Shown: positions 38,881 to 58,547 of the stretch, in pieces | How the letters are laid out: every line of letters starts with the position of its first letter | How positions within the stretch are numbered: the first letter of the stretch is position 1 | Origin: Crossiella cryophila | Lineage (GTDB): Bacteria > Actinomycetota > Actinomycetes > Mycobacteriales > Pseudonocardiaceae | Length of the DNA: 64,000 bases | Assembly: GCF_014204915.1 (NCBI RefSeq) | Contig: NZ_JACHMH010000001.1 | Span: 5,605,501-5,669,500 of the forward strand | Direction: 5' to 3' | Notes under the pieces: generated by a model | Seen by the model: the letters and a program-made list of their open reading frames with translations, nothing else | Told to the model about the DNA's origin: nothing | The model's database searches: none | Translations under genes and position numbers: made by a program

Positions 38881-38926
38881 GGGAGTCCTCCGGGCTGGGG
38901 CGATCTGGTCATCGGCACGGACCCGG

Positions 38927-41711: not shown

Positions 41712-42502
41712 GCGCCCTCCAGCGGCGGAGCCGAGTAGTACCGGTGGTCGAGCACCCAGCCCCGGCGCAGCAGCGAGGCCAGCACCGCCTCCGCCCGGGA
41801 GGCGGCCGCGCCGACCGGGTGCACGACGTGCCCGATCAGGGGCAGGCCCTCGGCCTCGGCGTGCGCCGCCGCGGCCGCGACCAGGTCCGCGGTCAGCCCG
41901 GAGACGTCCTGGTCCGGTTCCACCAGGGAATCGAGCAGTTCCACGAAGTCGCGGCCGGTCACCTCGTCCTGGGCCGCGCACAGCAGCGTGACGTGGCCGA
42001 CGGCGATCCCCCCTGCGGTGGCGACGTAGGAGCGCCGGTCCGGCGCGGCGAGCAGCTGGGTGGCCAGCTCCGCGGACCGCGCCCCGGCGTCGTGCCCCTG
42101 CTCGCGACCGGCCAGGTCGAACGCGGCGGCCAGCCAGCCCACCAGGGCGGGCTCGTGCCGGGTCTCGGCGGGCAGCACGTGTGGTGGGACGGGGCCTGCC
42201 TTGCCGGTGAAGCGGATGTAGGTCAGGTGCGGGGTCCAGGGCGGTCCGGGGCTCAGGTCCGGTGGGACCCGCAGCACCGTGCGCTCGGCGGCGGGTGCGG
42301 TGGTGGCCAGTGCCTGGCGCAGTCGCCGCAGGGCCGAGGGGTCGGCCAGCAGCCCGGGATCGACGTACTCGGCCAGGCACTGCCGCTGCCCGGTGACGGC
42401 GTCGAGGTGCTCGCCCACCACGTACGGCAGGCCGTCGAGGGTGGCCAGCAAGCCACTGGCTTCGGCCGACCGCAGGTAGTCGGGGCTGACCTGCTCGATC
42501 AT
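41708..42502 (-). CDS. GNAT-family N-acyltransferase (probable)
   Basis: 264 residues. The C-terminal half resembles a GNAT core: SYVATAGGIAVGHVTLLCA (strand 4), the region around LTADLVAAAAAHAEAEGLPLIGHVV (the CoA-binding helix would be here, though the R/QxxGxG/A motif is weak), and a final RRGWVLDHRYYSAPP. The N-terminal half is less conserved. ATG 42502 overlaps the M16 peptidase stop by 4 nt. It could acylate an amine in the product or the peptide; it is less certain than its neighbours because the pyrophosphate loop is not canonical. Confidence 0.65.
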   Translation of the reverse strand: MIEQVSPDYLRSAEASGLLATLDGLPYVVGEHLDAVTGQRQCLAEYVDPGLLADPSALRRLRQALATTAPAAERTVLRVPPDLSPGPPWTPHLTYIRFTGKAGPVPPHVLPAETRHEPALVGWLAAAFDLAGREQGHDAGARSAELATQLLAAPDRRSYVATAGGIAVGHVTLLCAAQDEVTGRDFVELLDSLVEPDQDVSGLTADLVAAAAAHAEAEGLPLIGHVVHPVGAAASRAEAVLASLLRRGWVLDHRYYSAPPLEGA

Positions 42503-43686
42503 CGGGCCTCCGGGCGCACCACGGTGATCAGCTCGCAGGCCAGCCGCTCGGCCGCCTGGCGGACCTGCTCGGCGGTGACCCGCGCCAGCGCGGCGAGTTC
42601 CTCCTCCAGGGACCACTCCGGCCCCCAGACCAGGACTCGCCTGGCGGTGAGGGTGGCGCGTTCCAGGGGGTTCTCCGCGTTGAGCACCAGGCTCATCCGC
42701 GCCTGGTTGCGGGCCGAGGCCAGGTCCGCTGGCAGCGGCCCCTGCTCGGCCACCCGCGCCAGGACCTCCCGCACCACGGCCAGGAATTTGTCCCCGTTGC
42801 CGCTCTCCACCCCCGCCAGCAGCCGCCAGGCCCCGGCCTCGGTGTACCCGCGCGACCAGGCCTGGAAGGCGTAGGCCAGGCCGTGCTCGCCGCGTACGGC
42901 CCGGTAGAGCAGCGAGGTCGGGCTGGCGCCGAGCAGTTTGGCCAGCACCGCGTAGGGATGCCGCTCGGGTGAGTTCGCCGCGGGGGAGCGGCCGCCGAGG
43001 CACACCCAGGAGAACTCGGTGGACCAGCGGAGGGGCTCCGGCGGATCCAGCGGGGGCAACGGGAGGTGCTCCCCGGCCCGTGGCCACGCCGGGGCCGCGT
43101 CGTGGTGCTGGAGCGAGGCCGGGATCTCCGGCCCGACCACCACCAGCGCCCTTGGGCTGGCCAGGAATCCGTTCCGGTGGCCTTCGAGCACATCGGCCAG
43201 GGTGAGCCCGGCGACCTCGGCGGGGGTGCCGCCGACCGGGCGGCCGAGGGGGTGGCCGGCGAAGGCGGTGGCCAGGAACGCGTCCTGCACGGTGTCGGCC
43301 GGGTCCGCCTCGGCGGCGGCCAGTTCCTGCAGCACGACCTCGCGTTCGCTGCTCAGCAACGTCTCGGTGAGCTGCGGCGCCAGCACCGCCCGGCACAGCT
43401 CACCGGCCACGGCCTCGGCGTCGGCGGCGCCCACCTGGGCGTAGTAGAGCATGGACTCCGGGCCGGTCTCGGCGTTGGCGTGCCCGCCGAGGCTCTCCAC
43501 CTGCTCGCTGACCGAGATCCCGCCCTCCCGAGGGGCCGACATCAGCGCGTGTTCCAGCATGTGCGCCAGGCCGCCCTTGCCCTCGGGATCGTGGCGCGAG
43601 CCGTAGCCCACCGCCAGGCACACACTGGTGGTCTTGAGCCGCTCGTCCACGATGGGGACGAGCGGGATCGGTGCTGTGCTGGCCAT
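42499..43686 (-). CDS. M16 family zinc metallopeptidase
   Basis: 395 residues, about the size of single-subunit M16B/PqqF-half peptidases. The inverted zinc motif HxxEH is intact (GLAHMLEHALMSAP, His42, Glu45, His46), and the third ligand lies in SEREVVLQELAAAE (Glu121). A C-terminal M16 domain follows (SLLYRAVRGEHGLAYAFQAWSRGY). ATG 43686 is preceded by AAGGA. It is the first full-length gene after the 21-codon peptide gene, with a hairpin between. The natural assignment is maturation or proteolysis of that peptide (inference), as M16 enzymes do in PQQ and subtilosin pathways. Confidence 0.9.
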   Translation of the reverse strand: MASTAPIPLVPIVDERLKTTSVCLAVGYGSRHDPEGKGGLAHMLEHALMSAPREGGISVSEQVESLGGHANAETGPESMLYYAQVGAADAEAVAGELCRAVLAPQLTETLLSSEREVVLQELAAAEADPADTVQDAFLATAFAGHPLGRPVGGTPAEVAGLTLADVLEGHRNGFLASPRALVVVGPEIPASLQHHDAAPAWPRAGEHLPLPPLDPPEPLRWSTEFSWVCLGGRSPAANSPERHPYAVLAKLLGASPTSLLYRAVRGEHGLAYAFQAWSRGYTEAGAWRLLAGVESGNGDKFLAVVREVLARVAEQGPLPADLASARNQARMSLVLNAENPLERATLTARRVLVWGPEWSLEEELAALARVTAEQVRQAAERLACELITVVRPEAR

Positions 43687-43724: not shown

Positions 43725-43754
43725 GGGTGCTGCCGCGATTTCGCGGCAGCACCC
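43725..43754 (-). promoter_or_regulatory. Perfect 13-bp hairpin between peptide gene and peptidase gene
   Basis: Arms 43725-43737 and 43742-43754 pair perfectly around a 4-nt loop. There is no T-run. The position, 12 nt after the peptide stop codon and 38 nt before the next start, is where RiPP operons often carry a partial terminator or RNA-stabilising hairpin. Such a hairpin makes precursor mRNA more abundant than enzyme mRNA. Confidence 0.85.
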
Positions 43755-43766
43755 TTCAGCCGGTCA

Positions 43767-43832
43767 TCAGCGGTTCGGCTTGACCTTCACCTTGTCCAGC
43801 CGGGGCCGGAGCAGGCTTGCGTGCTTGCGCAT
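43767..43832 (-). CDS. 21-residue peptide, candidate RiPP precursor
   Basis: Twenty-one codons, beginning MRKHASLLRP and ending RLDKVKVKPNR. It is very basic (four Lys, four Arg, one His) with a Pro-Asn-Arg end and no Cys, Ser-rich or Thr-rich core. AAGGCGAGGTG lies about eight bases before the ATG, a good ribosome-binding site, and a perfect hairpin follows the stop. It heads the leftward operon with M16 peptidase, GNAT, nucleotidyltransferase and exporter. Length, a basic start and an -NR end recall PqqA, which is also processed beside an M16 peptidase, but the Glu/Tyr pair of PqqA is absent. It could alternatively be a translated leader that regulates the operon. No homologue is recognised. 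Confidence 0.7.
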   Translation of the reverse strand: MRKHASLLRPRLDKVKVKPNR

Positions 43833-43879
43833 ATTCGATTCACCTCGCCTTCTGATAGGACAGCGAGCGCGCGAAAGTA

Positions 43880-43898
43880 TCCGGAAGAAACTTCCGGA
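43880..43898. promoter_or_regulatory. Inverted repeat TCCGGAAG-AAA-CTTCCGGA
   Basis: Perfect 8-bp arms with a 3-bp spacer lie 48 bp upstream of the peptide start in the 332-bp divergent region. It is a candidate operator or 5'-UTR hairpin for the peptide operon. Confidence 0.55.
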
Positions 43899-44095
43899 AT
43901 CGGGCGCTCAGCTGATGGGGCGAATGGCCCTTTTTGGAACGTAGCATAGGGCTCGGACGGCTACAAGAATCCGATCCCGGGCCTACTTGGCGCGCATCCG
44001 GCTTGCAGAACTGTGGCCGCGATCGGCCAAAACCAATCCCATTCGGCTTCGATCCTGTAATGCTGGAGACCATGCACTGCAATGACCCCTGGTGA

Positions 44096-44111
44096 GGCAC
44101 GTCCACGTGCC
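44096..44111. promoter_or_regulatory. Palindrome GGCACGT-CC-ACGTGCC in divergent cluster promoter
   Basis: Perfect 7-bp arms with a 2-bp spacer lie about 54 bp before the HPr-kinase-like gene. Together with the sites at 43880 and 44128 they are the only structured elements in the divergent gap. Confidence 0.5.
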
Positions 44112-44127
44112 CATACGGTCGAGTTCA

Positions 44128-44147
44128 TTAGTAAAACGTTAGTAAAA
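44128..44147 (+). promoter_or_regulatory. Direct repeats TTAGTAAAA with 11-bp period
   Basis: TTAGTAAAA occurs at 44128-44136 and 44139-44147, one helical turn apart and 18-37 bp before the HPr-kinase-like start. AT-rich heptamer repeats at 11-bp period are the known binding pattern of SARP regulators. A SARP gene is present at 15931, but the link is inference. Confidence 0.45.
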
Positions 44148-44164
44148 GCAGCGAGAGGTCCTTT

Positions 44165-45433
44165 ATGCGCGGATCACCGCAGGTGAACCAGGACGGCCTG
44201 CAACCAGAGCTGGATCGGCTGTTCACCGCCGCGGCCGCGGGCCCGCCGGAGACCCACCGGGTCTTCCGGATCGGCGGATTCCGCTGCTGGGTGCACAGCA
44301 CGCTGGCCGGTCAGCACCGGGCCCTGCGCCTGTTCGTGCCGTGGGACACCGACGCCCGAGCGCACGCCCCGCGCGGGCCCGAGGACTGGTCGGTGGACAC
44401 GGTGATCGCGCCGGAACTGCTGGCGCGGCTGCGGGAACTGGGCGAGGGCAGCCGGGGTGAATCCCTGGAGATCTTCGCCGGGGAGACCGTGGTCGACCAC
44501 CACCGCCTGGCCGGACCGACCGAGCTGTTCGTGCCACAGGACAGCCTGCGGCACGTCGTGCTGCAGCGCGGCCGTGACGTGCGGATCGTGCTGGCCGACG
44601 GCGACCGGTCGCTGGCCACCTACGCGGTGCGCGCTTTCCGGGAGGCATTCCACCGGACCCAGGAGGAGGCAGGCGGCCTGATGATGCACGCCGCCGCCTG
44701 CGCGGGGCCGGACGGCGCCGCGCTCATCGTGGGGGAGAAGGGCGCGGGCAAGACCACCTTGCTGCTCTCGGCCGGGAGCCTGGCCGGCGCGAGCTACCTG
44801 GCCAACGACCGGACCGTGCTGCGGCCCGGCCCGGAGGGCCACACGCTGCTGGCCTACCCGATGGTCTGCCGGGTCCACCCCGGCACCGCGGGGGTCTTCC
44901 CCGAACTCGCCGCGCTGGCCACCCGGCCCGGCAGGCTGGCCCGGCCCCAGCACCCCCTGTTCAGCACCCCGCACGCGGACTTCGCCGAGGTACTGGCCGC
45001 GGCCGGGCCCGGCACCAAGCTGGAGTTCGCGCCGGCCGAACTCACCGAACTGCTCGGCATTCCCCTTGTCGACCAGGCCCCGCTGCGCTGCCTGATCTTC
45101 GCCGCGATCGACCGCGACCGCCGGGAGGTCGCCGCCGAGCCGGTCGGGCCGGCGGAGGCGGTGGCCGAGCTTCTCGCGCAGTGCTTCACCCCCGACGAGG
45201 AGAAGTGGATCACCCCGTGGCTGCTGCCGCGCAGCAGGGACGCCGACCGGATGCGCCGGGACGCGGCGGCTGCGCTGCGCCGGGTCGCCTCCGACCTGCC
45301 CTGCTACCGGCTCCGGTACGGCCACGGCGCCGAGGCGGCCGCCCGCGCGGGCGAACTGGTGATGTCGATGATCTCGCGCTCGCCCGCCCTGGTCGGCGGC
45401 GGTGCGCCCGGAGTGGCCGGAGGCTCCCGATGA
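44165..45433 (+). CDS. HPr-kinase-like P-loop ATPase
   Basis: 422 residues. Walker A LIVGEKGAGKTTLLLSAG (about 188-204) and the preceding MMHAAACAGPDGAAL are typical of HPr Ser kinase-like proteins found in lasso and other peptide clusters. There, known members phosphorylate a peptide or carrier. It overlaps the aminotransferase by 4 nt and starts the rightward operon. An ACP- or HPr-type partner is not seen here, so the 21-residue peptide or a small molecule is the candidate substrate. The start ATG follows GAGAGG. Confidence 0.78.
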   Translation: MRGSPQVNQDGLQPELDRLFTAAAAGPPETHRVFRIGGFRCWVHSTLAGQHRALRLFVPWDTDARAHAPRGPEDWSVDTVIAPELLARLRELGEGSRGESLEIFAGETVVDHHRLAGPTELFVPQDSLRHVVLQRGRDVRIVLADGDRSLATYAVRAFREAFHRTQEEAGGLMMHAAACAGPDGAALIVGEKGAGKTTLLLSAGSLAGASYLANDRTVLRPGPEGHTLLAYPMVCRVHPGTAGVFPELAALATRPGRLARPQHPLFSTPHADFAEVLAAAGPGTKLEFAPAELTELLGIPLVDQAPLRCLIFAAIDRDRREVAAEPVGPAEAVAELLAQCFTPDEEKWITPWLLPRSRDADRMRRDAAAALRRVASDLPCYRLRYGHGAEAAARAGELVMSMISRSPALVGGGAPGVAGGSR

Positions 45434-46773
45434 TCGAGGGCACGCAGCAGACACCGGTCCCGGACCGGCCGCTGACCGAGGGCCTGGCCTGGTTCGAGCG
45501 GTCTTCGCGGACCGTGGTCGGCGGCGTCAAGCGGATGAACCTGCTCGACGATCCGGCCGAGTTCCCCTGTTTCTTCACGCACAGCGCGGGCGGACGCACC
45601 TGGGACGCGGACTCCCACGAGTACATCGACCTCATCGCGGGCAAGGGCAGTGTGCTCATCGGGCACACCGAGCCTGCCGTGGACGAGGCCGTGATCGCCG
45701 CCATCCGCGGCGGCAGCATGCCCCCGCTGACCCCGACCGACTACCCGGTGGCCGCCGAGCGGCTGTGCGCGGTGACCGGGATGGGCAACCGGGCCAAGTT
45801 CTTCCGCACCGGCTCCTGCGCGGTGACCGCCGCGGTCCGCATCGCCCGTGCCGCCACCGGCAGGCAGACCGTGCTCACCTGCGGGTACCACGGCTGGCAC
45901 GACTGGTTCGCCGAGCGGGACAAGAACCCACGCGCGGAGGCCCCCGGCCCGGTGGTGGAGTTCGGTTACGACGTGCAGACCCTGCGCGAGTTGCTCGCCG
46001 CCACCAGCCCGGCCGCGGTGGTGGTCACCCCCGAGCCCGCGCTGTTCGACCTGGACTTCCTGCGCCAGTGCGCGGAACTGGCGCGGGCGGCAGGCGCCCT
46101 GCTCATCGTGGACGAGGTCAAGACCGGGTTCCGGGCCGGTCCGCTCGGCTACGCCGCCCTGGCCGGCGTCCGGCCGGATCTCACCGTGCTGGCCAAGGCC
46201 CTCGGCAACGGGTACCCGGTCTCGGCCGTGCTCGGCGACGTCGCGGTGATGGCGGCCGAGACGGAGATCCACGTCTCCGGGACCTATGAGACCGAACGCC
46301 TCGGCCTGGCCGCGGCCACCGCCTGCCTGGACCTCTACGCCGCGCGGACCGAGGCCGAACACACGGCCTACCAGGCGGCCTGCCAACAGCTGGCCGACGG
46401 CCTCAACCGGATCTTCGCCACTCACGGGACGGGCGCGCACGCCTGCCTCGGACCGGGCAACACCCAGATCATCTTCGCCGACCAGGAGTGGGCCACGGCC
46501 TTCTACCGCGCCTGCGCGCGCCGCGGCCTGCTGCTCTACTGCTTCGACGACGTGAACCTGATGTTCGCCCAGACCGGCATGGTCGAGGCGATCCTGGACA
46601 TCGCCGCGGCGGCGGTCGCGGCGGTGACCACTCAGCTCGGCGGCTGCCCGCCGCTGACCGTCGACCACCTCGCGGCCTACCTGAACCGGCACCGCGTGCT
46701 GGGCAAGGACCAGCAGCAGGCAGGCAGGGTCCTCGAGCGGGTGCGCGCGCGGCTGGGCTGGGCTCGCCCGTGA
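45430..46773 (+). CDS. Class III PLP-dependent aminotransferase (glutamate-1-semialdehyde aminomutase-like)
   Basis: 447 residues. It has the fold-type I pattern: FFRTGSCAVTAAVRIARAATGR, CGYHGWHDW, the PLP-ring Asp in LLIVDEVKTGFR (Asp228) and the Schiff-base Lys256 in TVLAKALGNGYPVSAVLGD. It resembles GSA aminomutase but lies inside a biosynthetic operon with an alcohol dehydrogenase and has no hem genes around it. It is therefore more probably a transaminase of a sugar, aldehyde or modified peptide end. It overlaps genes on both sides by 4 nt. Confidence 0.9.
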   Translation: MIEGTQQTPVPDRPLTEGLAWFERSSRTVVGGVKRMNLLDDPAEFPCFFTHSAGGRTWDADSHEYIDLIAGKGSVLIGHTEPAVDEAVIAAIRGGSMPPLTPTDYPVAAERLCAVTGMGNRAKFFRTGSCAVTAAVRIARAATGRQTVLTCGYHGWHDWFAERDKNPRAEAPGPVVEFGYDVQTLRELLAATSPAAVVVTPEPALFDLDFLRQCAELARAAGALLIVDEVKTGFRAGPLGYAALAGVRPDLTVLAKALGNGYPVSAVLGDVAVMAAETEIHVSGTYETERLGLAAATACLDLYAARTEAEHTAYQAACQQLADGLNRIFATHGTGAHACLGPGNTQIIFADQEWATAFYRACARRGLLLYCFDDVNLMFAQTGMVEAILDIAAAAVAAVTTQLGGCPPLTVDHLAAYLNRHRVLGKDQQQAGRVLERVRARLGWARP

Positions 46774-47732
46774 CCACCCTGCACAAGAGCCGGGTGCGCA
46801 GCCGCCTGCAGACCCCGCCGCTGACCGCGGCCGACATCGCCCGGCTCACCGAACTCGCCCGCTTCCCGGCCGAGGGCCGCCCGCTGCGGCACCCGGTCCC
46901 GCACCGGGGGGACCCGCTCGCCGGACTCCTCGACCGGCACCGCCTGGACGGCATCGCCGCGGCCGCGGGCCAGGCCCCGGCGAGCCCGGCCCCCGGCCCG
47001 GCGCTGGCCGAGGCGGACACCGTGCTCGCCACCCTGGCCGCCGCGCGGGTGCGGGCGTTGCGGCTGAAGGGATCCTGGATCGCCGGCGAGCTGTACCCCC
47101 GGCCGGCCATGCGCCCGATGTCCGATGTGGACCTGCTGGTGTCCGAGCAGGACAACGGCCGCGCCGTGGTGGCACTGCGGCAGGCCGGCTACCGGGTGGT
47201 GCCAGGGCAGGAGTTCAACGGCACCTCCAAGCGCCTGCACGGAGCCCAGCTGCACCACCCGGACCGCGGCGTGCCGGTCGAACTGCACCACCGCATCGCC
47301 CGGCAGCTGCCGCTGTCCCGGCTGGCGCGGCTGCTCGGCCTCAGCCCCTCGGCCTGCGCCCTCCCGCCGGTGGCACACCTGTTGCACCGCCTGCTCGACA
47401 TCGCCAAGGACGGCTGGGCCCGCACCGGACTGCTGCCTTACACCGATGTGCTGCTGTTGCTGCGCCAGGCCCAGGTCCGGGTGCCCGAACTGCTCGACCT
47501 CGCGGTGGCCGCGCGGGTGCCCGGCGCGAGCGCCTCGGCCCTGCTCGCCTTCGACGCGCTGCTGGGCCCCGAACTCACCGCGGCCGAACTGGCCAGGTGC
47601 CGGCGGCTGGAACCGGCCGCGGTGCGCCTGGCCCGGCTGGCCGCCCTGCGCCAGGACGGCGGGTGGCGGGTGCGGTACACGCCCCGTTGGCAGCGCCGGA
47701 TCATCCGGCTGGCACTGGGAAGGACCTACTGA
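46770..47732 (+). CDS. Nucleotidyltransferase-fold protein (NTP_transf_5-like), second copy
   Basis: 320 residues from the GTG. The signature VRALRLKGSWIAGELYP...RPMSDVDLLVSEQDNG carries the same K-G, Y-P, R and D-x-D landmarks as the paralogue at 40644. A helical C-terminal region holds H-L-L-H-R-L-L-D. It follows the aminotransferase with a 4-nt overlap. Two copies, one per operon, suggest two successive transfer steps or a heteromer. The biochemical role is not established by the sequence. Confidence 0.75.
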   Translation: MTTLHKSRVRSRLQTPPLTAADIARLTELARFPAEGRPLRHPVPHRGDPLAGLLDRHRLDGIAAAAGQAPASPAPGPALAEADTVLATLAAARVRALRLKGSWIAGELYPRPAMRPMSDVDLLVSEQDNGRAVVALRQAGYRVVPGQEFNGTSKRLHGAQLHHPDRGVPVELHHRIARQLPLSRLARLLGLSPSACALPPVAHLLHRLLDIAKDGWARTGLLPYTDVLLLLRQAQVRVPELLDLAVAARVPGASASALLAFDALLGPELTAAELARCRRLEPAAVRLARLAALRQDGGWRVRYTPRWQRRIIRLALGRTY

Positions 47733-47735
47733 CCG

Positions 47736-48371
47736 ATGTTCGACGTCGTGCTGTTCGAAGGCATCACCGGCACCGGCAAGAGCACCCTGTTCCGGCACCT
47801 GGCGGCCGATTCCACCGCGGCGGGCTACGAATCCCACCTCACCCTGGCCCAGGCGTACACCCTGCGGATGGCCAGGCCCGAGGGGATCGTGGAGCACCTG
47901 CGGGACCTCACCGAGGGCATCCGCTCGCTGCACGCGCTCTACACCGGCAGCGAGTTCGCCGCCCGCACCGACGAACGCGGCAGCATGCTCGTGCTCGCCG
48001 AGGGCTTCCACCTCTACGGCCTGCTGGAGCACCAGCCAGCCGAGCAGCGGGCCGAAGGGCAACGCAAGATCGAGTCGGTGCTGCGCGAGGTCCGGCCGCT
48101 GGTGGTCTCCCTCGAACTCCAGGAGTCCGCGGTAAGGGAGCGGTGTGTGGAGTCCACGCTGCGCACCCGCGGCCCGGGGTGGCGGGAATTCCTGCGCCGC
48201 TACGGGCAGACCCACGAGGAGATCGCCGGGTACTTCACCCGCCGCCAGCGCGCCCACCGCGAGCTGGTCGAGGCCTCCGCCCTGGAGGTGCTGCGGATCG
48301 ACACCTCGGCCGGCGACTGGGCGGGGTACCTGGCGCGCGTGGTGGACCGGCTGACCGGGCCGCGCCCGTGA
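47736..48371 (+). CDS. P-loop kinase-like protein (thymidylate-kinase-like), first of a pair
   Basis: 211 residues. Walker A LFEGITGTGKSTLFRHL (about 6-22) and the motif RTRGPGWREFLRRYG (about 144-158), followed by the helical FTRRQRAHRELV, place it in a small P-loop kinase group. It lies 3 nt after the nucleotidyltransferase gene and overlaps its own paralogue by 4 nt. The dTMP-kinase DR(Y/H) motif is not obvious, so the phosphoryl acceptor is open. Confidence 0.75.
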   Translation: MFDVVLFEGITGTGKSTLFRHLAADSTAAGYESHLTLAQAYTLRMARPEGIVEHLRDLTEGIRSLHALYTGSEFAARTDERGSMLVLAEGFHLYGLLEHQPAEQRAEGQRKIESVLREVRPLVVSLELQESAVRERCVESTLRTRGPGWREFLRRYGQTHEEIAGYFTRRQRAHRELVEASALEVLRIDTSAGDWAGYLARVVDRLTGPRP

Positions 48372-48988
48372 CGGCCCCCCGCGGTCTGGCCTTCTGCGGC
48401 GTCACCGGCGCGGGCAAGTCCACCCTGACCACGGCGGTGGTGCGGCGGCTGGCCGCCGGTGGGCATTCGGCGGTGCTGCTGCAGAACAAACTCCTGCAGT
48501 CGCCGGGGGCCGAGGTCTTCGCCACCGACGGCGCCGAGGGCCTGCGCGGGTTCCTGGCCGCCCAGGCCCGCCGCTGCGCCGCCGCCCTCGAACTGCTCGG
48601 CCCGGCAGGCTACCTGGTGTGCGAGAGCCTCGGGGTGAACCTGCTGGTCGAATGCGGACTGGAGGACTCCGCGCTGCTGTCCGAAGTGGACAGTGCGCGG
48701 GCCGAACTGGGCATCGTGCTGGTGCGCCTGCACTTCGGCGCCGAGCAGGTGCTGGAACGCAGCGTGCTCTCCACCGTCCGGCACCGCGGCCCAGGCTGGC
48801 AGCGCTATCTGCGGCGATTCGGGCCCGATCCGCTCAGCCAGGCGGCGGAGTTCCGGCGCCGCAGGGAGCAGGTCGACCGGCACTTCCAGCACAGCGCGGA
48901 ACCCAAGATGTCCATCTCCACCGAGTCGATGGCCTGGGATGCCATCGCCGACCAGCTGCGCACCGCGCTCACCGGAGGCACCAAGTGA
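48368..48988 (+). CDS. P-loop kinase-like protein, second of a pair
   Basis: 206 residues. Walker A FCGVTGAGKSTLTTAVV (about 9-25). It shares RHRGPGWQRYLRRFG (about 138-152) and a following R-rich helix with the preceding gene product, so the two are diverged paralogues kept side by side. GTG 48368 and the following GTG 48985 both overlap neighbouring stops, showing tight coupling. Joint action on one intermediate or heterodimer formation is inferred. Confidence 0.72.
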   Translation: MTAPRGLAFCGVTGAGKSTLTTAVVRRLAAGGHSAVLLQNKLLQSPGAEVFATDGAEGLRGFLAAQARRCAAALELLGPAGYLVCESLGVNLLVECGLEDSALLSEVDSARAELGIVLVRLHFGAEQVLERSVLSTVRHRGPGWQRYLRRFGPDPLSQAAEFRRRREQVDRHFQHSAEPKMSISTESMAWDAIADQLRTALTGGTK

Positions 48989-50157
48989 CTGACGGCCTGC
49001 GGATCGTGGACCTGATCGCCGGTTTCGGCGACACGTTCCGGTTCAACTGCCCCACCGAGATCCTCTTCGGCGCCGGCCGCGCCGCCGAGCTGCCCGCGCG
49101 GGTGCGCGCCCAGGCCCGGCGGGTGCTGGTGGCCGTGGACGCCGCCGCCGCGACCGGCCCGGCGGGCGAGCTGCTCGCCGCCCTGCGCGCCGAGCAGGCG
49201 ATCGAGCTGGCCGAGTGGAACCCGCCGGCCGGAGAACCCACCCTCGCCGGGCTGGCCGGTGGCGCAGACCTGGCCCAGGCGCACCGGCCCGAGCTGGTCC
49301 TGGCCATCGGCGGCGGGGCGACCATGGACAGCGCCAAGGTGCTGGCCGTGCTCGGCGCGGCCCCGGCCGGGGTCACCGCGGCCGACGTGATCGCCCCCGG
49401 CACGTACCGCCCTGCCGACGTGGTTCCACTGTGGACGGTGCCAACCCTGTCCGGCTCCGGCGCCGAGGTGACCAGGGGCACCGTGATCGCCGACGGCCAT
49501 GGCGTCAAGAACGGCTTCGCCAACCCCGCGCGCCATCCCGCCCTCGCCGTGCTCGACCCCACCCTCGCCGTCGGCGCGCCCGCCGCCGTGCTCGGCCCGC
49601 CCACCGTGGACGTGTTCTGCCACGCCACCGAGTCCCTGCTGGCCGGGCGCGGCTTCCCGATCAGCGACCTGCTCGCCGCCACCGCGGCGACCCTGGTCGT
49701 GCGCAGCCTGGCCGAGCCGCTCGGCGAGCGCTCGGTGACCGGCGCCGGTCAGCTGATGACCGCCGCGGTGTTCGGCGCGATGGCCTTCTCCAGCGGATCG
49801 GGCCTGACCACCGCGCACGAGTACTCCGACATCGCCGGCCTGCGCCTTGGCCTGCCGCACGGCTACGCGGCGAGCCTGCTGCTGCCCGCCGTGCTGGCCC
49901 GCCAGGCCGAACTCGGCCATCCCTCGGTCGCGCGGCTGGGCAGGCTCTTCGCCGACGCCGGCCTCTCCGGTGATCCCGGCCGGGACCTCGCCCACGTGCT
50001 GGGTGAGCTGGGTGCGCCCAGACTGCCGGAAGTGTGCTCGCCGGAGCAGGCGCTGGAGCTGGTGGAACTGCTCTACGCGGTCGGCGATGACCGGCACTGG
50101 ATCTCCCGCCAGGACGCGATCACCCTGGTGGGCAAGGGATTCGAACTCGATGCCTGA
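48985..50157 (+). CDS. Iron-containing alcohol dehydrogenase family protein
   Basis: 390 residues. The NAD-binding GGGATMDSAK (about 104-113) and the metal-ligand pattern (Asp in ALAVLDPTLA, His in DVFCHATESL, His in GLPHGYAASL) match group III/iron-dependent alcohol dehydrogenases. The GTG start has GGAGG six bases upstream. Oxidation of an alcohol followed by transamination by the enzyme at 45430 would turn a hydroxyl into an amine. Daptide pathways pair these two families, although other daptide hallmarks are missing here. Confidence 0.88.
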   Translation: MTDGLRIVDLIAGFGDTFRFNCPTEILFGAGRAAELPARVRAQARRVLVAVDAAAATGPAGELLAALRAEQAIELAEWNPPAGEPTLAGLAGGADLAQAHRPELVLAIGGGATMDSAKVLAVLGAAPAGVTAADVIAPGTYRPADVVPLWTVPTLSGSGAEVTRGTVIADGHGVKNGFANPARHPALAVLDPTLAVGAPAAVLGPPTVDVFCHATESLLAGRGFPISDLLAATAATLVVRSLAEPLGERSVTGAGQLMTAAVFGAMAFSSGSGLTTAHEYSDIAGLRLGLPHGYAASLLLPAVLARQAELGHPSVARLGRLFADAGLSGDPGRDLAHVLGELGAPRLPEVCSPEQALELVELLYAVGDDRHWISRQDAITLVGKGFELDA

Positions 50158-51472
50158 CCCGGTGACGGTGGCCACGGCCGTGGTGGCCTGCTGGCTGGCC
50201 CTGCGCTACACGCTGATCTGGGCCCGGCTGTGGGCGGCACCCCAGCGGCTGGCCGCCGATCGCGAACGCGACCTGGCCGCCAGCGAGCGGTTCGCCGGTG
50301 ACAATCCGCCGGAACTGGTCTTCATCGTGCCCGCCTACGCCGAGGCGGACACCCTGCCGGACTCGGTGCCCGCGCTGTGCCGGTCCATCGAGGCCGGCCA
50401 GTACCCGGCGAGGATCATCGTGGTCACCTCGCTGGCCGAGCGGGCCGCCCCCGAACAGGTGCCGGTGGGCGCGGGCGGCCACGGGCACGGGCCCACCGCG
50501 CGGGTGGCCCGGCGGCTGGCCGCCGAGTACCCGCAGGTGACCCACCTCGAACACGACGGGCCGCGGCCGAACATGGCCGCCCAGTTCAACGCGGGCGTGG
50601 CCGCGGTGCGGGCACAGGCTGGCGAGCGCGCCGGGCGCACCTACCTCGTCTGCTACAACGCCGACACCACCGCGGCGGCCGACACCGTGCAGGCACTGGG
50701 CGACACCCTGACGGCCACCGGCCTGCCGCCGGTCGCCCAGCTGATGTGCGTCTCGCTGCGCAACCTGGACCGGCTGCGCGGCCGATGGGCCTGGTACCTG
50801 GCAGGCGCGGCCTACTACCAGACCCGCTGGGCGCTGGGCTTCGAGTTCGACATGTACCGGCGCAACAGCCGCCGGGGCGGCGCCTACTACCTGCGTGGCC
50901 ACGGGCTGACCGTGCGGCTGGACCTGCTCAGCAGGCTCGACGGGCTGAGCAGCCGCACCGCGCTGGAGGACCTGCTGCTGGGCTTCCGCCTGTCGCTGCG
51001 CGCCATCCCGGTCCAGGTGGTCCCGGTGGTGGAGAACACCGACACCCCCACCACCGTCCGGGAGTTGCTGGCGCAGAAGAGCAACTGGTTCTCCGGCATG
51101 TGGGACGTGCTGCGCTACCGCCGGTTGCTGGGGGCCGAGGCCGCCGAGTTCGGCGCCCGCTTCCACCTGCTGCGGCTCGTCTCGCTCTACCGCGACGTGG
51201 CCTCCTGGCTGCTCGGCCCGCTGGCCGGGCTGTGGCTGCTGGTCTGCGGGTTCTTCGGCGGATGGCCCTGGCTGGCCGCGCTGCCGGTGGCCAACGCGGT
51301 GCTGTCGGTCCTGCTGGTGCGCCGGGCGGCCCGCGCGGCCGGACTGGACGCCGCGGTGCCGGGCGTGGGCTCCCTGGCCCTGTCGGCAGGCACGCTCGCG
51401 TACTCGCTCAGCCGGAACCTGGGGCCGCTGCAGCACCTGACCCGTCAACTGAGGAAGTGGTTCACCGCATGA
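50150..51472 (+). CDS. Membrane glycosyltransferase, GT2 family (processive type)
   Basis: 440 residues. There is one N-terminal transmembrane segment (about 5-27). The GT-A domain carries VFIVPAYAEADTLPDSVPAL, the metal-binding NADTT (D-x-D variant), TALEDLLLGFRL (ED catalytic base) and QKSNWFSGMW in the place of the QxxRW motif. Two or three transmembrane segments follow (about 345-425). This layout is that of chitin/hyaluronan/NodC-type synthases, with Asn for Arg in the last motif. It overlaps the dehydrogenase gene by 8 nt and the deacetylase by 4 nt. Confidence 0.85.
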   Translation: MPDPVTVATAVVACWLALRYTLIWARLWAAPQRLAADRERDLAASERFAGDNPPELVFIVPAYAEADTLPDSVPALCRSIEAGQYPARIIVVTSLAERAAPEQVPVGAGGHGHGPTARVARRLAAEYPQVTHLEHDGPRPNMAAQFNAGVAAVRAQAGERAGRTYLVCYNADTTAAADTVQALGDTLTATGLPPVAQLMCVSLRNLDRLRGRWAWYLAGAAYYQTRWALGFEFDMYRRNSRRGGAYYLRGHGLTVRLDLLSRLDGLSSRTALEDLLLGFRLSLRAIPVQVVPVVENTDTPTTVRELLAQKSNWFSGMWDVLRYRRLLGAEAAEFGARFHLLRLVSLYRDVASWLLGPLAGLWLLVCGFFGGWPWLAALPVANAVLSVLLVRRAARAAGLDAAVPGVGSLALSAGTLAYSLSRNLGPLQHLTRQLRKWFTA

Positions 51473-52344
51473 CCGTCGTCGCACTGCTCTACCACTGCGT
51501 CCGCCCGTCCGAACAGGCCTGGCCCGGTGACGACCTGCTCCGGCTGTCCGTGGGCGATCATCGGTTCCGCGAGCAGCTCAAGACCCTGGCCGCCAACGCG
51601 GAGGTGCTCGAACTGTCCGTGGCGCTGCGGCACGGTCCCAGCCTGGAGCGCTCCCGGAACCTGTACGTGACCATCACCTTCGATGACGCCTACGCGCGGA
51701 CCCTGGAGCTGGCCCAGGCCGCGATCCGGGACACCGTCGGGGTGCCCGCCACCGTGTTCGTGCCAGCGGCGCACTGCGCGCGCGAGCAGCCCTACTGGTG
51801 GGACGTCTTCGGCCGGGCGCACGGCGTGCGTGGCTGGCGCGACGCGGCGCCCGCCGACCCCGCGGCCACCCTGCGGGAGCTGCGCGGACTGCGCTACGCC
51901 GAGGCGGAGGCGCGGGTGCTCGACCTCGTGCGCCCCGAGGTGGTGGCGCAGTGCCCGGACCGCGCGGCGACCTGGGCCGAACTCGCCGCACTCGACCACG
52001 AACACCTGCGCTTCGGCAGCCACGGCTGGTGGCACGAGAACCTCAGCCTGCTCTCCCTGCGCGAGCTGGACCACGCGCTGCGCGAGGCCCACGCGGCCAT
52101 CACCGGCGCCGGCCTGCCCACCGTGTCCGCGCTGGCCTACCCCTTCGGCCGGGAAAGCGACATCACCTGGGAGCAGATCCGGGAGGTCGTCGGGCTGCGG
52201 CACGCCTACGGCCTGCTCTCCGAAGCCGGTCGCTTGATGGGCGCTCCGGCGACCAACCCGCTGGCGCTGCGGCGGGTCTTCGCCGACGACATCCCGCCGG
52301 AGGACCTGCTGCGGCGGATCCGCACCGTCGCAGGCCAGGACTGA
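51469..52344 (+). CDS. Polysaccharide deacetylase family protein (CE4-like)
   Basis: 291 residues. It has the NodB-homology motifs TFDDAY (catalytic/metal Asp pair) and SHGWWHENLSLLS (S-H-x3-H metal ligands), with a later AYPFGR motif (typical YPFG). The family removes N-acetyl groups from GlcNAc-containing sugars. Placed directly after a membrane GT2, it probably frees an amine on the sugar that the GT2 adds. No signal peptide, so it is cytoplasmic. Confidence 0.88.
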   Translation: MTVVALLYHCVRPSEQAWPGDDLLRLSVGDHRFREQLKTLAANAEVLELSVALRHGPSLERSRNLYVTITFDDAYARTLELAQAAIRDTVGVPATVFVPAAHCAREQPYWWDVFGRAHGVRGWRDAAPADPAATLRELRGLRYAEAEARVLDLVRPEVVAQCPDRAATWAELAALDHEHLRFGSHGWWHENLSLLSLRELDHALREAHAAITGAGLPTVSALAYPFGRESDITWEQIREVVGLRHAYGLLSEAGRLMGAPATNPLALRRVFADDIPPEDLLRRIRTVAGQD

Positions 52345-52384
52345 GCGCACCCCGCCCCCACTCATCGAAGAAGGAGACCTCGCC

Positions 52385-54142
52385 ATGCGGTACTACCTCG
52401 GGCTCGGCGGATCGAAGCACGATTTCGCCACCTGCCTGGTAGGCGGCGGGAAGGTGCTCGCCGCCATCGAGGAAGAACGGATCACCCGCAAGAAGCGCAG
52501 CTACGGGGTGCCCGAGGACGGCCCGCTGGCCGGTGTGCGCTACTGCCTCGACCTCGCCGGGATCACCATGGCCGACGTGGACGCGGTCTTCGTCAACGAC
52601 CTGCTCGAACCGTGGAGCTACGAGACGCTGGGCAAGGACACGCACGTGGTGGGCCATCACCTCGCGCACGCCGCCAGCGCCTACTACGTCTCCGGCTTCG
52701 ACTCGGCGGCCGTGCTCGTGGCCGACCACAGCGGCGGGCGCTGGCGGACCAAGGACGGCACCCTGACCGCCGAGGTCGTCTCCTACTACCGGGGCGAGGG
52801 CAGCGAGCTGACCCTGGTCGACCGGCAGTCCTCCGCGGACTCGGTGACCGTGGAGAGCAGGCCGTTCGCCACCGACCTGCGCGGCTCGCGGGGCATCGAC
52901 CTGCTCAAGCGGCCGGGCCACTCACTGGGCCGGTTCTACGCGCAGCTGGCCAAGCTCGCGCAGTGCAACTCGGTGCTGGGCGACGGCAAGCGGCACACCG
53001 AGAGCGGCAAGCTCATGGGCCTGTCCGCGCACGGCACACCGGTGCTGCTGGACCGGATGCGGGCCTGCTTCGACCTCGGCACCGCCGGACGCGTGCACTT
53101 CCAGGCCAACGAGCAGGGCGAGTCCTTCGAGGACATCGCCCGCCACCACCTGGAACCGAGGGGCACGCCGGAGCAGTGGTTCGCCCGGCGCGCCGATGTC
53201 GCCTATGCCGCGCAGCACTGCCTGGAGGAGATGGTGCTGCACCTGGCCCGGCACGCCGCCGAACTCACCGGCGAACGAGCCCTCGGGCTGGCCGGTGGCA
53301 CCTTCCTCAACGGACTGGCCAACGAGGCCGTGCTGAGCGCGGGCGTGGCGGACCGGCTGTTCGTGCAGCCCGCCGCGCACGACTCCGGCACCGCACTCGG
53401 CGCGGCCCTGCTCGGCGCGGCCAGGGACGGCAACTGGCCGTGTCCCGACCCGCGCCCGTTCTCCCCGTTGCTGGGCAAGGAGTACTCCCCGGCGGAGATC
53501 GAGTCGACCCTGGCGGGCCAGGGCGTGCCGCACCGCAGGGTCGCCGACCCGGAACTGGTCGCGGCGCGGGCCATCGCGCACGGCCGGGTGGTCGGCAGGT
53601 TCACCGGCCGCAGCGAGTACGGGCCGCGGGCCCTGGGCAACCGGTCGGTGCTGGCCGATCCCCGCGACCCCGGGGTGCGGCGGACCCTCGACGAGCGGAT
53701 CAAGTACCGCGAGCCCTACCGCCCCTACGCGCCCGCCGTGCGGGAGGCGGACACCGCGCGCTACTTCGCCCTCTCCGGCCGCTCGCCGCACATGCTGCTG
53801 ATCGGCCGGGCCACCCCGGAGGCCGAGGAAACCGTGCCGGCCGTGGTCCACCTCGACGGCACGGTACGGGTCCAGGAAGTCACCGAGCAGCAGTACCCGA
53901 GCCTGCACCGCCTGCTCGGGTACCTCGAGGACCTGACCGGGGTGGGCGTGGTGCTCAACACCTCGATGAACGTCCAGGGTGAGCCGATCGTGGAGACCCC
54001 GGCCGACGCGGTGGCCTTCCTGTTCGGCTGCCTGGTGGACGTCCTTATCATCGGGGATTTCGTGTGCTGCCGTTCCGAGCACGAACTCGGCCGGTTCATC
54101 GAGCGCCACGGGAAAGACGGGGATCCGCACAGTGACCGATGA
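52385..54142 (+). CDS. Carbamoyltransferase, NodU/TobZ/CmcH family
   Basis: 585 residues, the full family length. The N-terminal Kae1/Hsp70-like domain carries the metal site VGHHLAHAASAYY and ESGKLMGLSAHG. The C-terminal YrdC-like part contains GRSEYGPRALGNRSVLADPRD. The family makes carbamoyl-adenylate from carbamoyl phosphate and ATP and transfers it to a hydroxyl, as in tobramycin, cephamycin and Nod factors. AAGGAGA precedes the ATG. It is separated by 40 nt from the deacetylase and overlaps the kinase downstream. Confidence 0.94.
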   Translation: MRYYLGLGGSKHDFATCLVGGGKVLAAIEEERITRKKRSYGVPEDGPLAGVRYCLDLAGITMADVDAVFVNDLLEPWSYETLGKDTHVVGHHLAHAASAYYVSGFDSAAVLVADHSGGRWRTKDGTLTAEVVSYYRGEGSELTLVDRQSSADSVTVESRPFATDLRGSRGIDLLKRPGHSLGRFYAQLAKLAQCNSVLGDGKRHTESGKLMGLSAHGTPVLLDRMRACFDLGTAGRVHFQANEQGESFEDIARHHLEPRGTPEQWFARRADVAYAAQHCLEEMVLHLARHAAELTGERALGLAGGTFLNGLANEAVLSAGVADRLFVQPAAHDSGTALGAALLGAARDGNWPCPDPRPFSPLLGKEYSPAEIESTLAGQGVPHRRVADPELVAARAIAHGRVVGRFTGRSEYGPRALGNRSVLADPRDPGVRRTLDERIKYREPYRPYAPAVREADTARYFALSGRSPHMLLIGRATPEAEETVPAVVHLDGTVRVQEVTEQQYPSLHRLLGYLEDLTGVGVVLNTSMNVQGEPIVETPADAVAFLFGCLVDVLIIGDFVCCRSEHELGRFIERHGKDGDPHSDR

Positions 54143-54998
54143 CCACCAGACCGACTGGTTCGGCCTGCCGCCCGAGGCCGTCGCCCACTGCCAACGGGTA
54201 CTGGGCCCCTGCCACCCGGTCGCCGACCTGTCCTGGCCGCACGGCGGGGCCCGCACCGTGGAGGTGCACGCCGCCGACGGCCAGAGCTGGATCGCCAAGT
54301 CCGTGGCCAAACCCTCGGCCTACGAACGCGAACGCGACGCCTACCGCGACTGGGTCCCCGCACTGGCGGACAACGCACCCCACCTGCTCGACGCCGCCGA
54401 CAACCTGCGACTCCTGCTGATCAGCAAACTGCCAGGCACCCTGGCCGAAAGCACCCCGGCCGCGACCTCCCCCCAAGCGCACCACCGTGCGGGCGAACTG
54501 ACCCGGCGCTTCCACCAGTCCACCGCCCCCATAACCGATCCCGGCTTCGCCCCCCGCCTGCTCGCCAAGTTCGACAGCTGGGCCACCCGAGCCGAGACCC
54601 TGCTCTCGCAATCCCAGCTGGCCGCCGCCCGCACCGAACTGTCCGGCCTGGCAACCCTGCCAGCCCCCACCCTGGTGCCCTGCCACCTGGACAACCACCC
54701 CCGCAACTGGCTGGTCGACGACACCGGCAGGCTCCGCCTGATCGACTTCGGCCACGCCCGCAAAGACGTGTGGATCCAGGACCTCAGCCGCCTGCACTTC
54801 GGCGTCTGGCACAACCGCCCAGACCTGCGCGAGGCATTCCTGTCCGGCTACGGCCGAACCCCGACCGAACTCGACCTGGCCGTACTGCGCTGCTACGCGG
54901 CCTACACCGGGGTGAGCACGGTCGTGTGGGCACATGAACACGCCGACCCGGAGTTCGAGGCACACGGCAGGGAGATCCTGGCCCGCAGCGGCAGCTGA
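54132..54998 (+). CDS. Aminoglycoside phosphotransferase (APH)-family kinase
   Basis: 288 residues from a GTG inside the end of the carbamoyltransferase gene (11-nt overlap). Kinase motifs of the APH/choline-kinase fold are complete: Lys in SWIAKSV (ATP-binding), catalytic HLDNHPRNWL (H-x-D-x4-N) and the metal-binding IDFGHA. It could phosphorylate the sugar product for self-protection or activate a sugar precursor. It is the last gene of the rightward operon. Confidence 0.88.
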   Translation: MTDDHQTDWFGLPPEAVAHCQRVLGPCHPVADLSWPHGGARTVEVHAADGQSWIAKSVAKPSAYERERDAYRDWVPALADNAPHLLDAADNLRLLLISKLPGTLAESTPAATSPQAHHRAGELTRRFHQSTAPITDPGFAPRLLAKFDSWATRAETLLSQSQLAAARTELSGLATLPAPTLVPCHLDNHPRNWLVDDTGRLRLIDFGHARKDVWIQDLSRLHFGVWHNRPDLREAFLSGYGRTPTELDLAVLRCYAAYTGVSTVVWAHEHADPEFEAHGREILARSGS

Positions 54999-56858: not shown

Positions 56859-57647
56859 ATGGCTTTCAGCCCCGCGCAGTTCAATGCCGTGAAGACGAAG
56901 GTGGACAAGGGGATCGACGACCTGGAGGCTCAACTGGCCGCGCTGCGCACGGCCATTCGCCTGCAACCCCAGGTGGCGATGATGCCGGAGTTCCTCAGGG
57001 ACGCCATCGAATGGTGCGCCGAACAGATCTACCGCACGGGACACCACATCTGCGTGACCGTCAAGGACATCGCGGTCGGCATCGCCGCCCCGCTGTACTT
57101 CTTCGCCTATTCCCTGGAATGGCTGGACGTTCGCGGCCAGGCCACCAACGTCGTCGGCCAGTTGAAGCCCGAGGCGATGCCCGCGGTCAACTCCTGGGCA
57201 GGCTCAGCGGCGGTGTCCTACAAGTCCCACATCAAGCCGCAGGGCGACGCCGCGAACAAGATCGCCACCATCGCGGAGAAGACCTCCGCCGCCCTGGCCA
57301 TCAGCGCCGCGGCCGGCCTGGCCTTCTACGCGGCCATCGCCCTGCTGCTGGCAAAGGTCATCGCCGCCGTCACGACCGCCGTGGTGCTGCTGGGCAGCGC
57401 CGTGCTCTCGCTGGCGGGCCTGGTGGTTTTCGTTGGCGAGCTTGGCCTGACCACCGGCATGATCTCAGGACTGGTCACCGCACTGGTCGCCTTCCTGGGC
57501 AGTCAGGCGCAGAACCTGGTCAGCCTCAAAGGCGAGGCCATCGACAACAGCTTCTTCCCCGGCGGCAGGTGGCCGGACCCGTTCACGGGCTCCTACCACG
57601 ACGGCAGCGTCAGCGACGGCGACGCCGACTGGTCCCTCAACCGGTAG
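56859..57647 (+). CDS. WXG100-like protein with C-terminal membrane region
   Basis: 262 residues. Two helical parts flank the turn NSWAGSAAVSYKSH, which carries the WxG motif (about residue 112). After it come hydrophobic helices (about 140-220, including FYAAIALLLAKVIAAVTTAVVLLGSAVLSLA). It starts 15 nt after the 104-residue protein. Together with it, it may form the usual WXG pair, here with a membrane tail. The C-terminus (PFTGSYHDGSVSDGD) is polar. Confidence 0.8.
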   Translation: MAFSPAQFNAVKTKVDKGIDDLEAQLAALRTAIRLQPQVAMMPEFLRDAIEWCAEQIYRTGHHICVTVKDIAVGIAAPLYFFAYSLEWLDVRGQATNVVGQLKPEAMPAVNSWAGSAAVSYKSHIKPQGDAANKIATIAEKTSAALAISAAAGLAFYAAIALLLAKVIAAVTTAVVLLGSAVLSLAGLVVFVGELGLTTGMISGLVTALVAFLGSQAQNLVSLKGEAIDNSFFPGGRWPDPFTGSYHDGSVSDGDADWSLNR

Positions 57648-57660
57648 CGAGGTGATCAGG

Positions 57661-58383: not shown

Positions 58384-58547
58384 CCCGGCATCATCCCAGC
58401 CTGTGCCCGAACCGTTGGCCGCGATGGAATCGCGGCCAAGGCGGCGTACTAGGCGATCCGGGTGATGTTGGCCGAAGTCAACCGAGCCGCCTGCGGTCGC
58501 GCGCTATAGATCGCGACATCAGCGCGACCATTCCGAACGGGGGACCG

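Follow-up and report, generated by a model that had tools for sequence, protein, structure and literature searches.

Crossiella cryophila, a member of the Pseudonocardiaceae, carries a gene of only 21 codons between two divergent gene arms in a 64,000-nucleotide stretch of its genome (positions 5,605,501 to 5,669,500 of contig NZ_JACHMH010000001.1; the whole stretch is referred to as the window). A preliminary description of this DNA had proposed that the gene, with a ribosome-binding site in front and a perfect hairpin behind, heads a biosynthetic cluster for a peptide-derived or peptide-scaffolded aminosugar product. The comparison with related loci reported here indicates that the peptide and the genes of the left arm form a near-constant cassette, which recurs beside differing sets of biosynthetic genes. 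In the window, the cassette consists of the following elements, all on the minus strand.

43767-43832 (-): precursor peptide gene encoding MRKHASLLRPRLDKVKVKPNR; open reading frame (ORF) 43770-43832, stop codon 43767-43769; 21 codons, with homologous peptides in 34 of 36 clusters
43725-43754 (-): perfect hairpin, 13-bp stem and 4-nt loop, 12 nt beyond the peptide stop; 40 shuffled sequences reach at most 9 bp
42499-43686 (-): M16 peptidase resembling the beta subunit of mitochondrial processing peptidase (MPP), with HxxEH and a distal E; core
41708-42502 (-): double-GNAT transferase; Pfam score 15.3 against a cut-off of 20.7, predicted fold in agreement; core
40644-41711 (-): nucleotidyltransferase NT_A with conserved KG...DxD and a MenT/JHP933-like predicted fold; core
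39694-40647 (-): ABC exporter ATPase, DrrA-like; core
38927-39694 (-): ABC-2 permease 1 (searched as 38927-39691)
38080-38880 (-): ABC-2 permease 2

The peptide gene has GAGG upstream, and its product scores 50.6 bits with a profile built from the other loci, far beyond chance, as the runner-up among 907 short ORFs of the window scores -1.2. No family in NCBIfam or Pfam matches the peptide. The 21-codon ORF is a genuine gene, and both its ribosome-binding site and the perfect hairpin behind it were present as first described. The coordinates given in the preliminary description stop short of the left arm (38080-43686), the half in which the conservation lies. The genes of this arm are closely packed, with spacings of +46, -1, -4, -4 and -4 nucleotides by ascending coordinate. 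The M16 residues H42, E45, H46 and E121 are invariant in 11 of 11 aligned proteins. NT_A falls under its Pfam cut-off (19.8 against 31.2) and its profile has no match among the sequences of the PDB, although its predicted fold agrees with the assignment; these fold comparisons re-align the top Foldseek chains and so cannot reveal missed folds, and the C-terminus of the NT_A model is poor. A comparison of the GNAT protein with a viral fold library yielded nothing useful.

Relatives were gathered using the M16 peptidase as anchor, which gave 36 distinct clusters (loci labelled L) in two actinobacterial families. The M16 protein was chosen because the HprK-like protein of the right arm gave only remote homologues in the window's family (27 of 297 genomes at E <= 1e-10, the window's own included; best other match 1.4e-33). 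Since all 36 clusters are anchored in this way, the counts cannot reveal peptides that occur without an M16 gene. A scan of contigs from one genome per species returned ten M16 loci of 48-54% identity in Streptomyces, Kitasatospora and Streptacidiphilus, and a tiny ORF bearing RPRLDK stands directly upstream of M16 in all ten. Orthologues of M16 were present in 11 of 199 Streptomyces genomes, 13 of 200 Streptomycetaceae genomes and 8 of 297 genomes of the window's family, its own among them; these samples overlap, and two of the 13 Streptomycetaceae matches had already been seen. In a class-wide sample of 394 genomes, three M16 orthologues reached 517-612 bits (again including the window's own) and the rest 244 bits or less, and the RPRLD peptide was absent from all 27 loci of this lower group (L047-L073), as far as their short flanks extend. 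Six regions that repeat named loci (L088, L093, L094, L112, L114, L115) were dropped before counting. L042 and L087, which lie on one contig with two M16 genes 20 kb apart, were merged into a single cluster, as were L135 and L136. Close relatives remain among the 36, namely L040/L043, L110/L111, L118/L119, L086/L089, L137/L138 and L139/L140. Genes of the relatives were called by our own script and not by a standard gene finder.

A homologous peptide was found in 34 of the 36 clusters, and in 32 of these 34 the M16 gene begins no more than 600 nt downstream of it, on the same strand. The preliminary description had suggested looking for a small ORF at the same spot in homologous clusters, and this conservation holds apart from L118 and L119. 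It had also envisaged an invariant -NR end; the C-termini vary, and the conserved part is instead the central RPRL region. The 33 distinct peptides are 14-23 residues long, have a net charge of +3 to +7 and share the core [LMV][RS]P[RK][LIV], which is usually LRPRL with D, E, Q or N as the next residue and K after that. A basic C-terminal tail is retained after the core, and the codons for R, P, R and L show synonymous changes across the 25 tabulated loci. Of the 8,042 short ORFs counted in the remaining loci, no non-member exceeds 7.4 with the full profile, and L142, the true member that scores lowest, reaches 15.7 with a profile that omits it; this leave-one-out scoring omits identical peptides only, so that near relatives stay in the profile. 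The scores exclude chance for the peptide family as a whole, L142 being its weakest member. In L090 the peptide lies 6.4 kb from M16 on the opposite strand and keeps its hairpin, and no peptide accompanies the M16 operon of L087. Hairpins with stems of 12 bp or more lie no farther than 100 nt from the peptide stop in 29 of 34 loci (27 of 34 when the range is 60 nt) and differ in sequence; each of the 29 stems is longer than the best one in 40 shuffled versions of its own sequence, which does not hold for L035, L040, L043, L113 and L135.

The remaining genes of the left arm recur together with the peptide, in agreement with the proposed association of a conserved peptide gene with M16, GNAT, nucleotidyltransferase and exporter genes. 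M16, as the anchor, is present in all 36 clusters, the ABC ATPase in 35 (two of these matches being 50-residue fragments at a contig start), GNAT and both permeases in 33 each and NT_A in 31, when the queries include proteins of the loci themselves. With the window proteins as the only queries, the counts are 33 for the ABC ATPase, 31 for GNAT, 33 and 33 for the permeases and 31 for NT_A. GNAT and NT_A are fused into a single 646-residue protein in L095 (7423-9363, minus strand). Two M16 genes are present in L042+L087 and in L139-L141. In L139 (9426-12667, minus strand), L140 and L141 a GNAT-like gene lies between the two M16 genes, behind the divergent peptides LRPKLVIKGKGK and LRPKLVVKGKGK; the M16 pair possibly encodes a two-subunit peptidase. 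Genome G060 has three separate cassettes (L133, L134, L135) with three different peptides and different neighbours.

On the other side of the peptide gene, the window carries a divergent right arm on the plus strand.

44165-45433 (+): P-loop protein distantly like HprK-related kinases (TIGR04355, 32.6 bits against a cut-off of 200); variable module
45430-46773 (+): class III aminotransferase, nearest among solved proteins to those named C-6' aminotransferases (167 bits)
46770-47732 (+): nucleotidyltransferase NT_B, PF14907; variable module
47736-48371 (+): small P-loop kinase-like protein 1 (kin1)
48368-48988 (+): small P-loop kinase-like protein 2 (kin2), a paralogue of kin1
48985-50157 (+): iron-type alcohol dehydrogenase
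50150-51472 (+): glycosyltransferase family 2 (GT2)
51469-52344 (+): polysaccharide-deacetylase-family protein
52385-54142 (+): O-carbamoyltransferase; solved relatives TobZ (234 bits) and the novobiocin carbamoyltransferase (229 bits), a near tie
54132-54998 (+): APH-family kinase, 42% identical over 252 residues to the APH of L116

These genes are spaced by -4, -4, +3, -4, -4, -8, -4, +40 and -11 nucleotides, so the initial impression that almost every gene overlaps the next is accurate for most junctions, the exceptions being those of +46, +3 and +40. All neighbours named at the outset are present and the two kinases are indeed paralogous (26% identity, E 7e-9); the labels are weak for the HPr-kinase-like protein, GNAT and the left-arm nucleotidyltransferase. 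The HprK-like protein has no match among PDB sequences or in a plasmid collection and its matches are weak or missing in the relatives compared. A search for NT_B in 296 other genomes of the window's family gave nothing at E <= 1e-20, and GT2 has no match among PDB sequences. A single class comprising the whole set of 17 genes is not supported; the recurring part is the left arm and the peptide only. The aminosugar assignment is moderately supported for the window cluster by the C-6' aminotransferases and TobZ, with the reservation that the novobiocin enzyme nearly ties.

The genes beside the cassette differ between relatives. L110 has a NikO-like enolpyruvyl transferase gene (237 bits to NikO; the solved relative that comes next reaches 131) together with radical SAM, aminotransferase and TruD-like genes, three families that are common to L111. 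The TruD-like gene (L110, 6061-7176, plus strand; also in L111) lies near the radical SAM gene and, in L110, near the NikO-like gene, a combination that suggests a C-nucleoside pathway. AdoHcyase, Cupin_5 and guanylate-kinase-like genes occur in L034, L090 and L134, with an aminotransferase gene as well in L034 and L090. In L090 this module and the cassette form a single run of genes. As this module recurs with the cassette across two families, it argues for a functional link. The operon of the cassette includes a P450 gene and two dCTP-deaminase-family genes in L086/L089, and L117 has two thymidylate-kinase-like, a NUDIX, a phosphatase and two glycosyltransferase genes between GNAT and NT_A. 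L041 and L118 contain dehydroquinate (DHQ)-synthase-like genes, and L116 has sugar-type genes including an APH gene like that of the window. In L086, L089 and L116, sugar or nucleotide genes stand within the core operon. Gene families were counted over 28 loci, collected before the last additions; besides M16 and the ABC ATPase, GNAT and the nucleotidyltransferase are the only enzymes that recur in most of them, and HTH-TPR proteins lie near three. As a separate observation, L040 (3413-9363) and L043 contain YcaO and TfuA genes and a gene for a 577-residue protein without a Pfam or NCBIfam match, adjacent to proS, and a conserved 47-codon ORF ending in ...VITPW (L040, 9497-9640, plus strand; the same in L043). 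This group is possibly a separate thioamide-type pathway for a ribosomally synthesised and post-translationally modified peptide (RiPP).

The conservation of the peptide and its cassette, the hairpin and the differing modules are features of the sequences themselves, and we propose that they reflect a peptide-small-molecule conjugate. The left operon would be a constant cassette in which the tiny basic ribosomal peptide is made in larger amounts than the enzymes, because the hairpin is expected to limit read-through into their genes. The MPP-like M16 peptidase may cut the peptide close to its conserved RPRL, possibly between Leu and Asp after Arg-Pro-Arg-Leu to judge by the behaviour of MPP; the double-GNAT protein and the MenT-like NT_A may activate or cap the peptide and couple it to a small molecule, and the DrrA-type ABC exporter would secrete the conjugate. 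The right operon would be the interchangeable module, here for a predicted aminoglycoside-like amino sugar, with amination, O-carbamoylation, sugar transfer with deacetylation, and phosphorylation. That the locus yields such a hybrid of a constant ribosomal peptide and an interchangeable small molecule is the explanation we favour, at a probability just short of even; we infer the retention of the peptide in the mature product, the cleavage site, the conjugation chemistry and a role in carriage or uptake. The broader proposal is somewhat more tentative still: a modular actinobacterial platform may place the near-constant peptide cassette on amino-sugar, nucleoside or cyclitol pathways and give peptide-conjugated antibiotics, with the double GNAT and NT_A as the joining enzymes. 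We know of no instance in which such a pair forms peptide-small-molecule bonds. If the proposal is right, it describes a new biosynthetic logic of a fixed ribosomal handle with exchangeable small-molecule warheads, and the short motif and the M16 subfamily could be used for mining further clusters. It would point to cryptic amino-sugar or nucleoside clusters flagged by easily missed genes of 14-23 codons, and to a candidate natural delivery peptide.

Several observations weigh against the conjugate proposal. No residue is universal beyond the RPRL region, and the D and K that usually follow it are absent in L139-L142. The near-identical L118 and L119 have M16 but no recognisable peptide in the available 1.2-1.4 kb upstream, where their contigs begin; GNAT, NT_A and the permeases were likewise not seen in these two loci. 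As the stretch directly before M16 is free of a recognisable peptide, both speak against the rule unless their peptide is encoded at another position, as it is in L090. L097 has the peptide and a short M16 gene with no further core gene within 20 kb, NT_A was not found in L034 and L038, and its match in L138 spans only 44% of the query. The GNAT protein might merely acetylate, and every biochemical step of the scheme is deduced from genes. The window's own module is divergent from the cassette and not co-transcribed with it, and its aminotransferase finds its best NCBIfam matches in glutamate-1-semialdehyde aminomutase models (150.8 against a cut-off of 486); because these models score best yet fall far below their cut-offs, the amino-sugar role of this enzyme is a lead. 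A strict operon rule, which demands the same strand and gaps of 60 nt or less, places non-core genes in core operons in no more than 16 of 37 loci, a few cases being borderline, and part of the link between module and cassette is therefore proximity; the joining genes number 35 in 24 families, 18 of which occur in a single locus. Some of the neighbouring genes are probably unrelated to the cassette. Self-resistance by a second prolyl-tRNA synthetase, considered for L040 and L043, was rejected for G915, the genome of L043, where the neighbouring gene is the only full-length copy found. In G918, which contains L040, residues 1-204 of the synthetase match a second place at 76%, in an open frame of 603. 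Regulators of the AfsR/SARP type lie near 14 of the 28 loci, which would also fit a signalling peptide.

Such regulators, the HTH-TPR proteins, the dedicated exporter and the pairing of a constant peptide with unrelated pathways would all fit a cassette that made a processed, modified and exported pheromone that times production of the neighbouring antibiotic. We consider this rather unlikely, given that no receptor-type gene occurs in more than half of the 28 loci, that a nucleotidyltransferase and a GNAT protein would be unusual for a pheromone and that L086, L089, L116 and L117 hold sugar or nucleotide genes inside the core operon or between GNAT and NT_A. More weight, though still well on the doubtful side, goes to a role of the peptide as a chemical precursor or temporary scaffold, in the manner of pyrroloquinoline quinone (PQQ) or of the products of peptide aminoacyl-tRNA ligases (PEARLs). 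The RPRL residues, or a group attached to them, would then be worked on, M16 would free a small product and most of the peptide would be discarded. Like PqqA-type peptides, which have their conserved residues in the middle, the precursor is tiny and conserved centrally; M16, present in every cluster by construction, directly follows it in 32 of 34 loci, and the M16 pairs of L042+L087 and L139-L141 recall two-subunit M16 peptidases. Yet no oxidase, radical SAM protein or PEARL recurs in most of the 28 loci, Pfam finds none in the window cluster, and several modules hold genes typical of nucleoside or amino-sugar pathways, for which we know of no scaffold requirement.

Two further explanations were considered. 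The genes downstream of the peptide could be resistance genes, and the short ORF could act in cis as an antibiotic-sensing leader with an attenuator hairpin for an operon of acetyltransferase, nucleotidyltransferase and exporter. The +X+ motif is known for ribosome stalling, R-P-R would fit it, and both the strong hairpin in 29 of 34 loci and the position directly upstream of M16 in 32 of 34 would suit a leader. This explanation is disfavoured, and we hold it to be very improbable, because of L090, where the peptide keeps its hairpin at a distance and on the other strand, because the M16 operon of L087 lacks a peptide and because the ORF does not pair with the hairpin, which lies outside it: over 27 loci there is no extra complementarity between the ORF and the hairpin arms (z of -0.39 +/- 1.64 and 0.17 +/- 1.02, from duplex energies against shuffled sequences). 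The retention of a basic tail after the motif also speaks against it. An ordinary self-resistance and export cassette, in which the peptide is an unmodified antimicrobial or an immunity factor unrelated to the neighbouring small-molecule genes, would suit the exporter no less; the presence of the same cassette next to modules of different chemistry and the return of the AdoHcyase/cupin module in L034, L090 and L134 across two families make it improbable. We keep the peptide-small-molecule conjugate as our working interpretation. Should one of its rivals be right, there would still be something new to account for, namely a family of tiny conserved peptides that has a peptidase, a GNAT protein and a nucleotidyltransferase of its own and whose window member matches nothing in Pfam or NCBIfam.

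Elsewhere in the window, a ROK-family regulator and a short-chain dehydrogenase are encoded directly left of the cluster (36157-38024, plus strand) and are possibly a sugar-related edge of it, or unrelated. To the right (56859-61021, plus strand), a weak WXG100-like protein is followed by a 580-residue protein with a C-terminal DNA/RNA non-specific endonuclease domain, which looks like a secreted nuclease locus. At 8210-8698 (minus strand) there is an Rfam match to Sernc350, a Saccharopolyspora antisense RNA, at 76 bits against a gathering threshold of 50.

As to known systems, the cluster agrees with the general description of a RiPP in that an encoded precursor is conserved beside processing enzymes in 34 of 36 clusters. 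The reported absence of class-defining RiPP enzymes was upheld, as a Pfam scan at E up to 0.05 detected neither LanB/M nor YcaO, neither radical SAM nor asparagine-synthetase domains in any of the 16 proteins of the cluster. Among the relatives, YcaO/TfuA (L040/L043) and radical SAM genes (L042, L110, L035) lie nearby and do not recur. Membership of several classes was considered and rejected: PEARL scaffolds, as Pfam finds no LanB-type domain in the window cluster; daptides, as the NF041822 dehydrogenase model gives 42.5 bits against a cut-off of 300; and the PQQ, lasso and microcin C classes, as the PqqE radical SAM protein, the asparagine-synthetase-like C protein and ThiF were not found by Pfam in the window cluster. 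The motifs LRPRLDK, RPRLDKV and RPRLDKI occur in no paper of the literature searched, and the titles and abstract openings of the matches listed contain no description of this system, most subscription journals being outside the scope of both searches. The arrangement, known here from genes alone, appears to be new, and every enzyme family in it is known.

In the PQQ system, PqqA is encoded with the M16 proteins PqqF/G and carries an E-x3-Y motif. The present peptide resembles it in its very small size, its conserved central residues and its M16 peptidase, which the PqqF model TIGR02110 matches weakly (34.7 against a cut-off of 320). The window cluster has no radical SAM (PqqE) domain and the peptide has no E-x3-Y motif. 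As for aminoglycoside tailoring, NeoN/C-6' aminotransferases and TobZ are the closest solved relatives of two module enzymes, whereas the window cluster lacks a cyclase of the DHQ-synthase family and the carbamoyltransferase is almost as close to the novobiocin enzyme. L110 is reminiscent of nikkomycin clusters in its NikO-like enolpyruvyl transferase, radical SAM protein, aminotransferase and family f7, which Pfam identifies in L042 as a 2-oxoglutarate oxygenase; it differs in that its NikO-like gene is tied to the tiny-peptide cassette, which we do not know from nikkomycin clusters.

Related in gene content are the Bacillota systems in which an HprK-like kinase and an NTP-transferase stand beside the precursor, namely PsmK/PsmN of pseudomycoidin-type lasso peptides and LppK/LppN of the lpp RiPPs, as outlined in PMC9266682 and PMC13381572. 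Proteins of both types are present near the precursor in the window. In contrast to these systems, the window cluster has no asparagine-synthetase-like domain and no evident leader-core layout, and its HprK-like gene stands outside the recurring cassette. M16 peptidases are also known from class III lanthipeptides, according to the part of PMC10885120 concerned with them. None of the lasso, lpp or class III lanthipeptide precedents defines the window system. Microcin C, as sketched in PMC9239234, combines a tiny ribosomal precursor (21 residues in Nocardia vaccinii) with a nucleotidyltransferase, an exporter and a GNAT protein for immunity, and the same four elements are found in the cassette. 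There is, however, no ThiF (MccB-like) domain in the window cluster according to Pfam, and the C-terminal Asn is not conserved, as N is the last residue in just one of the 33 distinct peptides (L137). Microcin C has a variable peptide and few forms of the nucleotide part; here the reverse holds, with a near-constant peptide and a chemistry that varies.

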